Shown one piece after another: positions 5,873 to 20,894 of a stretch of DNA of 44,216 nucleotides. The notes under the pieces are model-generated. The model saw only the letters and a program-made list of their open reading frames with translations, was not told the DNA's origin and made no database searches. Origin of the DNA: Candidatus Neomicrothrix sp. GTDB lineage: Bacteria; Actinomycetota; Acidimicrobiia; Acidimicrobiales; Aldehydirespiratoraceae. The DNA lies in contig JAFMKU010000014.1 in assembly GCA_017852795.1 (NCBI GenBank), forward strand, positions 1-44,216, in the 5' to 3' direction. How positions within the stretch are numbered: position 1 is the stretch's first letter; every line of letters begins with the position of its first letter. The position numbers and the translations under genes were made by a program.

Positions 5873-7456
5873 CTAGGAGGCAAGGCCGCGGGAAGCGACC
5901 TCGCGAAGAAATTGGTCGTTGTTTGCGGTGGCGGCAACCTGTTCGGTCAACGCCGCTAACGCTCCAACCGGACCGACGCTATCGAGCAGTTCACCAATCG
6001 CCGAGTGCAGCGCCTGGCGGGCCGCCCCAGCCGACTCGTCAACAAGAAGATCTTCGCGGTTGGTCACGGTACGTCCGACATCCAAAGCCGGGTGCATCCG
6101 TCGCATCGCCGCCCGCTGATCGAGCCGCAGTTGCTGATTTGCGGTAGCAAAGAATTCTTCACCGATGGTGTCGTCCAGTACCGAACCGGAATCGGCGAGG
6201 ACGGTGGAAAGCATGGTCAGCGATCCTCCCTCAGCCACGGCACGGGCCGCTGAGAGGAAACGTTTGATCGGATACACCGCGGCCGGTTCCAAACCTCCGG
6301 CCAGCGTTCGGTTCGATGGAACGGCCTCCTGGTTGTAGGCCCGAACCAGACGGGTGATGCCGTCAACGATGAGCACCACATCCCGGCCGCTTTCCACCAT
6401 GCGCTTGGCCCGTTCGACAGTGACTTCGGCCAGCGCGATGTGTTCATCGGCCGGTCGATCAAATGTTGAAGCGATCAGCTCGCCATGGACCAGCGCCGAC
6501 CGAAACTCGCTGACGTCTTCAGGGCGTTCATCAACCATCAACACGATCAGGTGAACGTCAGGATGGTTGGTCTCGATGGAACGGACCACGTCACGAAGCA
6601 GACGGGTCTTTCCCGACCGCGGTGGGGCCACGATCAGGCCTCGCTGCCCTTTACCGAGCGGGGCCAGCAGGTCGATCAGTCGACCGGTCAGGTCCTCGCG
6701 GTCAGCGGAGCGTTCAAGGGTCAGCAGCGACGTCGGCTGCACCGGTGTCAAGTGCTCGAATTCGGGTCGGTCGGTGGCTTGCTCAACGCTTCCGCCGTTG
6801 ACCGTCTCGACCGAAATCAGGGCCGGGTTCTTTTCGTTTCGGTTGGCGGGTCGGCTAGGGCCGGACACGACATCGCCTTTGCGGAGGCCAAACTGGCGGA
6901 CCAACTTGACCGGCACGTAGGTGTCGTCACGGCTCGCCAGCAGACCATTGACCCGAATGAACCCGTACCCCTCCGGCCGCAGGTCAAGCAGACCTTCGAC
7001 CGGGCTCGGCACCCCATCCCAGGCTTCGGTGCCCTCGGACCGGGTTTCACGGTCCCGTCCTCGACGCCGACGCCGACGGTTTCCTGGTTCGGTCTTGCCA
7101 TCGGCGGCAGAACCAGCCGCGTTGTTGGCATCGTCGCCCGAATCATCGTCACTCGAGTCATCGTCGCCCGAATCATCGTCACCCGAGTCATCGTTGCCCG
7201 CGTCATCGTTGCCCGCGTCGCTGGCGGCCGCTTCGTGACTGGTCGCAGCGTCTTCGCTCTCAGCTGGTTCGCTCTCGGCTGCGTCGTCACCGCCCACGGC
7301 ACCATCTCCGCCAGCCGCCAGGTCAAGGATCATGTCGATGATCTCGCCTTTGCGGGCTCGCGACCCCGGTTTACGACCCAAAGCGGTCGCAATCTCGGTC
7401 AACTCATCTCGGTCTTTTCGTTGCAACGTTGACCGTCGCATCTCCGTGGTCTCCAC
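5873..7456 (-). CDS. rho: Transcription termination factor Rho with long acidic/basic insertion
   Basis: Hexameric RNA helicase that ends transcription; 527 residues against about 420 in E. coli. The start is GTG at 7456 with GAGGAG upstream. Order: Rho N-terminal helical domain (1-48), an Asp/Ser/Gly/Glu-rich segment (about 50-120) with pentapeptide repeats, an Arg-rich patch (127-134), an RNA-binding cold-shock-like domain (about 150-215, [10 protein letters not shown]), then the ATPase core with Walker A APPRSGKT near 278-285 and [12 protein letters not shown]. Actinobacterial Rho proteins often carry such insertions, which bind RNA. The C-terminus [11 protein letters not shown] is complete. 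Confidence 0.97.
7138..7212. repeat. Five tandem 15-bp repeats inside rho
   Basis: Five consecutive 15-base units begin at 7138, 7153, 7168, 7183 and 7198. They share the pattern CCCGARTCATCGTCR on the plus strand and encode DDDSG-like pentapeptides in the acidic insertion of Rho. A degenerate sixth unit follows. Tandem units that keep the frame can change copy number without breaking the gene. Confidence 0.85.
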
Positions 7457-13322: not shown

Positions 13323-13394
13323 GCCCTCGTAGCTCAGCGGATAGAGCATCGGCCTCCGGAGCCGTGTGCGCAGGTTCGAGTCCTGCCGAGGGCG
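13323..13394 (+). tRNA. tRNA-Arg (anticodon CCG)
   Basis: A 72-base cloverleaf: acceptor arm GCCCTCG paired with CGAGGGC, D arm GCTC/GAGC, anticodon loop CTCCGGA with anticodon CCG at 13356-13358, T arm GCAGG/CCTGC with loop TTCGAGT, and discriminator G. The 3' CCA is not encoded. The outermost anticodon-stem pair is a T-T mismatch. A TAGTGT box at 13290-13295 and a six-bp leader hairpin (13304-13320) lie upstream; a five-T run follows at 13399. It reads CGG codons. Confidence 0.95.
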
Positions 13395-18825: not shown

Positions 18826-19569
18826 ATGACCAACAACTCGCCGTTTCTGGACCGGCCGCCGATCCCCAACCGGGAAGCGCTGCTGCTCCTCGCCGAAGGA
18901 AGCGCCGAGTTGGTCGGCCGAATGCCGTATTCGAGCAACGCGACTTTTCTGGTCAACCTCAGCCACGACGAGCACGTTGCGCAAGCCATCTACAAGCCCG
19001 CAGCCGGAGAATCGCCGCTCTGGGATTTTCCCGACGGCCTGTACCGCCGTGAGGTCGCCGCCTACATCACCAGTGAGGCGCTGGGTTGGGATCTGGTCCC
19101 TCCGACCATTGCCCGCCACGACCTCGCCCACGGGGTTGGTTCGTTGCAGCTTTTCGTCCCGTCGATCTACGAAGAGCACTACTTCTCACTGCGCGAAGCG
19201 ACAACGGTATACGACCAGCAATTCCGGCAGATCTGCGCGTTTGATCTGGTCATCAACAACACCGACCGCAAATCCGGGCATTGCCTGCTGGGAACCGACG
19301 AACAGATTTGGGCCATTGACCACGGGGTGGCGTTTCATCAAGAGTTCAAGTTACGCACGGTGATCTGGGATTTCGCCGGAGAACCGCTTGACGAAGCCTG
19401 GCTGGAGGACCTTTGGCGCCTCCACGGTGAGCTCCCGGGCGAATTGGACGAGCTGCTCTCTCCGTTTGAGCGGGCCGCGATGACATCCCGGATTGCGGCG
19501 TTAGCCACGGCCGGCCGCTTTCCGGCCGATGACAGCGGTGGCCGGCGTTGGCCCTGGCCGCTGGTCTAA
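18826..19569 (+). CDS. SCO1664 family protein (PI3K/HipA-like kinase fold)
   Basis: A 247-residue protein with a kinase-like layout: an ATP-binding part with IYKPAAGESPLWDF, a catalytic loop DLVINNTDRKSGHCLL and a metal-binding WAIDHGVAFH. These are the motif positions of phosphatidylinositol-kinase-like and HipA-like folds. Third gene of the phosphomutase/DUF3090 trio. The ATG at 18826 (MTNNSPFLDR) is chosen; the frame continues upstream but overlaps DUF3090. The mycothiol ligase gene that often comes next in actinobacteria is absent here. Kinase activity is inference. Confidence 0.87.
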   Translation: MTNNSPFLDRPPIPNREALLLLAEGSAELVGRMPYSSNATFLVNLSHDEHVAQAIYKPAAGESPLWDFPDGLYRREVAAYITSEALGWDLVPPTIARHDLAHGVGSLQLFVPSIYEEHYFSLREATTVYDQQFRQICAFDLVINNTDRKSGHCLLGTDEQIWAIDHGVAFHQEFKLRTVIWDFAGEPLDEAWLEDLWRLHGELPGELDELLSPFERAAMTSRIAALATAGRFPADDSGGRRWPWPLV

Positions 19570-19681
19570 GGCCAGTCCGGCGTCTCTGCGAGCCTTTTCG
19601 GTCCGCTTAGACCCGAAAACTACGAAAAATGGGCGGATGTTTGGTCCTGCTCAAGAACCGAGAAAAAACTTGTGGCAAAAC

Positions 19682-19711
19682 CCGACATCGAAAAATTGGA
19701 TGTGCTATGTT
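19682..19711 (+). promoter_or_regulatory. Candidate extended -10 promoter inside the gene-free stretch
   Basis: CCGACA (19682-19687), 18 bases, then TATGTT (19706-19711), with a TGC just before it (19703-19705), the extended -10 pattern. Transcription would begin near 19718 and run to the terminator at 19880 without passing a credible gene. Confidence 0.35.
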
Positions 19712-19769
19712 GGGTAAATCGCATCGCCGCTACGGGTCTTCCCCGGGCGGCGATTTCTCGTTTTCCACC

Positions 19770-19833
19770 CCGGTTGGTCGCGCTCATGGTTGGTCGAGCT
19801 CCCGGTTGGTCGCGCTCCCGGTTGCCGGCCGGA
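19770..19833. repeat. 16-bp tandem repeat, three copies plus a decayed fourth
   Basis: Units at 19770-19785 and 19802-19817 are identical (CCGGTTGGTCGCGCTC). The unit at 19786-19801 differs at three positions, and 19818-19833 keeps only the first seven bases. The repeat is direct and without spacers, so it is not CRISPR-like. Confidence 0.85.
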
Positions 19834-19847
19834 GTCTCGCCGAACGA

Positions 19848-19880
19848 AAAAGCCCCCCGGTTGTTCACCGGAGGGCTTTT
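19848..19880. terminator. Bidirectional intrinsic terminator
   Basis: A 14-bp stem with one mismatch (AAAAGCCCCCCGGT against ACCGGAGGGCTTTT) and a five-base loop. It gives TTTT on the plus strand and TTTTT on the minus strand. It lies between the convergent SCO1664-type gene and etfA and can serve both. Confidence 0.9.
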
Positions 19881-19925
19881 CGTTACCTGAACGGTTGCTG
19901 GTCCCAAAGGACCACCAGAAACCAG

Positions 19926-20894
19926 TTAGCGAGACTTGAGCGCCTCAATCAACTTCGGCATGACCTTGTGGACGTCACCAACGATCCCGAGGTCTGCTAC
20001 TGCGAAGATCGGGGCCTCAGCGTCTTTGTTGATGGCAATGATGGTCTTTGAACCCTTCATGCCCACCAGATGCTGGGTCGCACCCGAAATACCGCAGGCG
20101 ATGTAGACGGCCGGTTTCACTACCTTGCCGGTCTGACCAACCTGGTAGCTGTAGGGAACCCAACCGGCGTCAACGATGGCCCGGCTTGCTCCGGGGGCGC
20201 CACCCACCAGTTTGGCCAGATCATCAACCATGGCGTACGACTCGGAGTCGCCGAGCCCACGGCCACCCGAAACCACAATCGCGGCTTCATCGAGCTTGGG
20301 TCCGTCCGATTCTTCGACGTGACTGTTGAGGATTCGAGCGCCGCCGGTTGTTCCGAGGTCGGGGACGTCAAGGTCTTCGACGTCGGCTTCGGCGCCACCG
20401 ACTGCTTCGGCCACGAACGACTTGGGGCGAACCAGGAAGATGCCGGAGGTACCGGAAGTGTTCTTGGTCTTGACGTCGGTGGTTCCACCAAAGACCGGCT
20501 CCAAACCGACCAGCGTGTCGCCGTCGACTTCAAGATCCACGACGTTGGTGATCACCGACTGGTTGAGCTTTACCGAAAGGCGCCCCGCCACGTCTCGGCC
20601 GTCCTGCGTGGTACCCAGAAGGAACGCATCCGGAGCGTCAAGGCCACCGGCGATCGCGGCGGCAACCGCCGAAGCGACCGAAACGCCCTGCATGGCCCCG
20701 TTGAGGTCACCGGTTGCGTACACGGTCTGCGCCCCATGATCGCCAAGCTCCTCGGCGTAGTCGTCGCCGTCACCAGCCATGAACACCTCTACGGTGTCGG
20801 CCAATTCGCGGGCCTTGGCCAGCATTTCCAACGTGATCGTGGCGACCGAGTCACCGTTGGTTTCGCCGAATACCCAAATCTTGTCGAGTCCCAT
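19926..20894 (-). CDS. etfA: Electron transfer flavoprotein alpha subunit
   Basis: Large subunit of the heterodimeric FAD protein that takes electrons from acyl-CoA dehydrogenases; 322 residues. The C-terminal FAD domain shows [39 protein letters not shown] and IAINKD, all diagnostic. It lies 11 bases after etfB, the usual order. The two-way terminator at 19848-19880 lies just beyond its stop. Confidence 0.97.

Follow-up and report, generated by a model that had tools for sequence, protein, structure and literature searches.

A conserved, apparently undescribed small-RNA gene predicted at the SCO1664/etfA junction of an uncultured actinobacterium

Described small RNAs and the present locus

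6C RNA (RF01066), which features two C-loop hairpins, is a small structured RNA of Actinobacteria, as is the RNA that we predict to be produced from a short intergenic module in an uncultured member of this phylum. DicF, an RNA of about 53 nt that pairs with mRNA through its own sequence, offers a second comparison: both DicF and the module RNA are very short and end in a terminator hairpin, but the latter displays almost no conserved unpaired sequence and additionally possesses its own conserved promoter. The 6S and Ms1 RNAs, which are protein-binding and much longer than the module RNA, and the ANTAR-target RNAs, which are paired hairpins with conserved loops, function via structure and not via a seed, as we propose for the module RNA. 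Unlike the ANTAR targets, it would consist of one hairpin with a variable loop.

The module lies in contig C68, a stretch of 44,216 nucleotides (hereafter, the window) belonging to the 2.32-Mb draft genome G000. In a search of the window against Rfam 15, only a tRNA at 13323-13394 reaches the gathering score, and no family matches the module. The best sub-threshold match is RNAI (27.2 of the required 47 bits), which falls on the minus strand over the second hairpin of the region and attains its E-value of 0.0036 only in a 361-base search; we rejected it. 6C RNA was likewise rejected as the window shows no match to its model, either at the gathering score or at E-values up to 10. None of 21 genomes matched that model, a weak negative given that it was found in only 1 of 14 controls, and there below the cut-off. 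At the level of titles and listings, the literature, including that on small RNAs of Acidimicrobiia, yielded no description of the unit. We conclude that the SCO1664/etfA junction probably holds a conserved and apparently undescribed small-RNA gene, a prediction that rests on comparative sequence analysis. The Acidimicrobiales, known here from draft genomes only, would thereby gain a small-RNA family that a covariance model can trace and whose gene neighborhood recurs. Further, a promoter conserved across families that leads into a terminator almost at once, and this in the absence of an evident seed, offers a testable example of an RNA, or of a transcription event, outside the usual mRNA-pairing scheme.

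Architecture of the module and its promoter

The initial annotation had placed a candidate small RNA with an extended -10 promoter candidate, three 16-bp repeats and a strong terminator between convergent genes. The convergent setting is borne out: a SCO1664-family gene on the plus strand (end at 19569) and etfA on the minus strand (stop at 19926) face each other across the interval. The product of the former matches PF00454 barely over the cut-off and HipA_2 barely under it. A 72-aa ORF at 19672-19890 has no NCBIfam match, and the corresponding frames, inspected by eye, differ among relatives. The features of the locus are as follows:

18826-19569, plus strand: SCO1664 family protein (kinase-like); TIGR03843, 250.2 bits, above cut-off
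19653-19668 (about -65 to -50), plus strand: a pair of A-rich tracts separated by about 10 bases, UP-element-like; read in the window's own sequence, with A-tract peaks at -64 to -60 and -54 to -50 over 59 loci
19682-19687, plus strand: -35-like box CCGACA; over 59 loci, C at -36 0.88, C at -32 0.86, A at -31 0.90
19689-19697, plus strand: A-rich promoter-spacer element CGAAAAATT; over 59 loci, G at -28 0.97, A at -27 and -26 1.00
19701-19711, plus strand: extended -10 TGTGC-TATGTT (-10 at 19706-19711); over 59 loci, TGTG 0.97-1.00, TA 1.00, final T 0.93, columns partly conserved by construction as the loci were anchored on TGTGNTA-like text
19718, plus strand: expected transcription start (+1), placed by its distance from the -10 box
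19723-19754, plus strand: hairpin 1, the conserved RNA hairpin
19755-19766, plus strand: T-rich tail of hairpin 1, the probable termination zone
19771-19824, plus strand: 16-bp tandem repeat, 3.4 copies (Tandem Repeats Finder, period 16, score 80)
19843-19884, no strand assigned: hairpin 2, a near-perfect, strong, two-way terminator-like hairpin with T tails on both strands
19926-20894, minus strand: etfA, alpha subunit of the electron transfer flavoprotein; cut-offs exceeded for PF00766 and PF01012

Genome comparison delimits the conserved unit as a module spanning 19653-19766, which does not include the repeats. Its parts are, in order, the two A-tracts, the -35-like CCGACA box, GAAAA within the spacer and TGTGCTATGTT; some 12 bases later comes hairpin 1, of the 13-bp class, with its strand-specific T-rich tail. 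This conserved hairpin had been absent from the initial annotation. The elements of the candidate promoter are present: CCGACA and TATGTT are separated by 18 nt on direct reading of the sequence, TGTG is present and the arrangement is conserved over 59 loci (the 61 rows of alignment A6 minus L126 and a partial hit in L044, a set that also underlies the duplication, tail and identity counts). Across these loci, the pattern is that of A-tracts at about -61 and -51, C..CA near -35, GAAAA at -28 to -24, TGTG-N-TA at -17 to -11 and T at -7. TGTGCTA, which has the form of an extended -10 box, is also invariant in an unanchored alignment of seven sequences, and the A-tracts, which resemble UP elements, lie outside the modelled stretch used to find the loci and thus provide independent support for the promoter. 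A simple consensus scan of 19000-20500 returned neither a sigma-70 promoter nor a terminator at its thresholds. Degenerate -10 boxes are found in four g9 loci (L040, L053, L054 and L055).

When the spacer element and the extended -10 were sought together with up to three mismatches, they were recovered only at this locus in 4/4 genomes tested; the same scan found no further site that would point to a wider regulon. The unusual constancy of this predicted promoter suggests that a high or precisely controlled output matters.

Distribution of the module

A DNA search of 60 relatives identified the conserved block as window positions 19675-19765, again without the repeats. Two genus genomes and four family genomes showed it at first; in these, alignment and flanks place it at the same junction, into which L007 has a gene inserted. 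A covariance model (R1) built from seven sequences, all of which are among the loci that it later matched, detects one copy each in 24 of 51 family genomes, including 9/9 of the genus, and in 5 of 10 genera, with E-values down to 1.6e-18; about half of the family genomes are without the module. In the window's own genome, it recovers one copy, the next matches having E-values of 3.6 and 8.4. The SCO1664-family gene is adjacent at all 24 family loci and etfA lies in the fetched stretch at 22 of them; in L040, etfA is found behind an inserted gene.

A second model (R2), built from the 24 family sequences, matched 36 of 397 genomes of the order, of which 34 were retained (6 from the own family, 11 from f27, 11 from f28, 3 from f59 and 3 from f54) after two were removed by eye as chance matches: G123 (L113/L134), which lacks the promoter, and G145 (L126/L132), which lacks a clear hairpin or tail. 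L113 was left out of one further analysis, and L108 and L117, which come from one genome, may be strain copies. Outside the own family there are 35 copies, of which 10 are accompanied by the SCO1664-family gene and 12 by etfA in the fetched stretch; the remainder occupy other neighborhoods, some being second copies within one genome. In f27, etfA is only 62-72% identical, yet nine loci keep the SCO1664/etfA junction. By eye, the f27 loci L105, L107, L108 and L111 show a short minus-strand frame between etfA and the module that resembles a small membrane protein.

An exact pattern search of the genome_contigs collection returned eight records, titled Acidimicrobiales, Acidimicrobiia, Actinomycetes or Actinomycetota. 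With a third model (R3), 8 of 395 genomes of the class matched (four of the genus, one of f54 and three weak matches taken as chance), as did 2 of 396 genomes of the phylum (the own genome and G123). Outside the order, the class and phylum samples yielded nothing convincing; the order scan, like those of the class and phylum, which considered 11 candidates per genome under stricter filters, gives lower bounds. The genus g2 has the SCO1664/etfA junction without the module, so the latter does not simply come along with its flanking genes. In L136, one such g2 locus, three long tandem repeats of roughly 55-60 bases, noted by eye, fill the SCO1664-etfA gap.

Predicted RNA product and competing readings

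Hairpin 1 folds with -22.6 kcal/mol (z -3.6). Its partners pair in 96.1% of cells over the 24 family sequences and in 96.4% over 61 rows, with double changes at 5 and 11 of its 13 pairs, respectively, although these pairing counts lean towards the model since alignments A4 and A6 were fitted to its structure. A freely folded MAFFT alignment of seven sequences produced hairpin 1 again with three double-changed pairs. None of 500 shuffles reached the observed values for cells paired, double-change cells or covariation, and sliding the partner by one to three columns lowers the pairing to 34-52%. Of six single hairpins tested, five folded far better than their shuffles (z -3.6 to -5.8); the sixth, an f54 copy (L120), did no better than shuffles (z -0.46). 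The tail is one-sided: on the plus strand, 56 of 59 loci have at least 6 T among the 12 bases behind the hairpin, versus 2 of 59 on the minus strand. Among 959 simple hairpins in 400 kb of one relative, just 5 carry a tail of this kind. In L044, L047, L049 and L051, etfA ends roughly 5-30 bases past the tail, with no other clear terminator, which leaves little room for a second plus-strand terminator.

The locus combines conserved promoter elements of its own, a putative hairpin-plus-tail terminator of its own and a conserved RNA structure, the sequence hallmarks of a small-RNA gene, and the earlier proposal of a non-coding transcription unit is well supported by the promoter and by a hairpin that covaries across families. 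We envisage that transcription would begin near 19718 and mostly end after hairpin 1, near 19762-19766. The one-sided tail ahead of the repeats and the closeness of etfA behind it point to a main RNA that probably measures about 45-50 nt, almost all of it hairpin; any read-through would cross the repeats and halt at hairpin 2. The stem base UCGC/GCGA is nearly invariant and the tail is kept; the loop and the 5' leader vary. This distribution makes recognition of the hairpin RNA by a protein, as a decoy or cofactor, appear more likely than pairing with mRNAs, albeit as a weaker prediction than that of the RNA itself. Our favored reading, which we hold to be reasonably likely, is a small non-coding RNA gene; for its mode of action we prefer a strong promoter that drives a structured hairpin RNA of this size, which a protein may read.

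Next in weight is the reading in which transcription itself is the function, the promoter running straight into the terminator so as to insulate or pause the convergent junction or to soak up RNA polymerase or a regulator, with the RNA as a by-product. It draws on the identity between the own and other families, which is 0.658 in the promoter versus 0.24 in the loop and 0.37 in the stretch from the -10 to the hairpin, on the restriction of the promoter motif to this locus and on the frequent placement of the module at a convergent junction. We consider it rather unlikely because the outer stem arms are equally conserved (0.68-0.75; tail 0.61), with a stem base constant beyond the needs of a terminator, and several copies in f28, f54 and f59 are not convergent. 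Spanning both readings, a tentative generalization, which we think less likely than not, would be that the module represents a new lineage-specific class of non-coding unit in Acidimicrobiales, wherein a dedicated strong promoter, found once per genome, runs directly into a terminator and either the hairpin of about 50 nt or transcription itself might control RNA polymerase, a regulator or DnaA-linked processes, and not mRNA pairing.

A base-pairing small RNA with its seed in the stem or the U-rich tail could account for the partial conservation of the stem base and tail; we give it a small chance, as we found no conserved unpaired seed in the leader or loop when comparing families, and a start near 19718 would leave only about five unpaired bases before the stem. 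Similarly improbable is that the module acts purely in cis, as a leader or attenuator, or as a DNA site, and that its RNA has no function of its own. Several copies in f28, f54 and f59 have same-strand genes downstream, where the module could act as a leader or attenuator. In most of the family, the own genus included, the next gene is encoded on the opposite strand, so that there is no gene to lead, and the one-sided tail, like the covariation, speaks for RNA. A DNA site could draw on DnaA-box-like sites (consensus TTRTCCACA) found some 100 bases before the modelled block at half of the family loci (12/24: L034, L036, L039, L041, L044, L047, L049, L050, L051, L053, L054 and L055, each at most 250 bases upstream of the module), with 12 such sites in 160 upstream bases versus 0.06 in shuffles. 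They are absent from all nine loci of the own genus, and similar sites were seen by eye in the g2 loci L135 and L137, which have no module; hence, they are not part of it. These sites possibly mark a DnaA-binding locus outside oriC. An origin or terminus site was rejected: in the single-contig genome G015, the module lies about 1 Mb from dnaA (2.493 versus 3.519 Mb), and the GC skew over 20 sampled 20-kb stretches, though noisy, reads as an origin near dnaA. Least probable of all is an RNA of about 165 nt that would start at 19718, extend to hairpin 2 and offer several binding sites in its 16-base repeats: the repeats and the two hairpins do share one gene-free stretch that folds well as a whole (19718-19885, -77.8 kcal/mol, z -3.0), but the repeat unit is absent from 8/8 other genomes of the genus, the conserved terminator-like hairpin stands ahead of the repeats and the spacer after its tail varies in length and sequence.

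The 16-bp repeats are a local oddity of this one genome and probably lie outside the main RNA. Their presence, as initially annotated, is confirmed, with three copies spaced by 16 at 19769, 19785 and 19801, one serving as reference and the other two sharing 79% and 92% identity with it; the self-match score of the stretch after hairpin 1 was reached by none of 60 dinucleotide shuffles. The suggestion that they serve as several equal binding sites is not supported, and of the conservation expected in close relatives, the promoter is conserved and the repeats are not: within the genus, the other eight genomes match the 15-base core of the unit at 8-9 of 15 positions at best, and the linkers after the tail differ in length and sequence. 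Hairpin 2, the strong terminator of that annotation, is present as described. At its position, the loci of the genus have hairpins of other sequence, and it is probably the etfBA terminator and a back-stop for the module.

Tandem duplications after the tail give a suggestive signal, being found at 11 of 59 loci at a threshold of at most 1 of 60 shuffles versus 4 for upstream control windows, with a different unit each time. Unrelated short duplications of 14-20 bases resembling the 16-base repeat of the window were noted after the tail in L034, L039, L043, L047, L048, L095 and L102. Within the window, the repeat score of 80 is the highest outside 7129-7219, where a tandem array of 15/30-base units has the top score.
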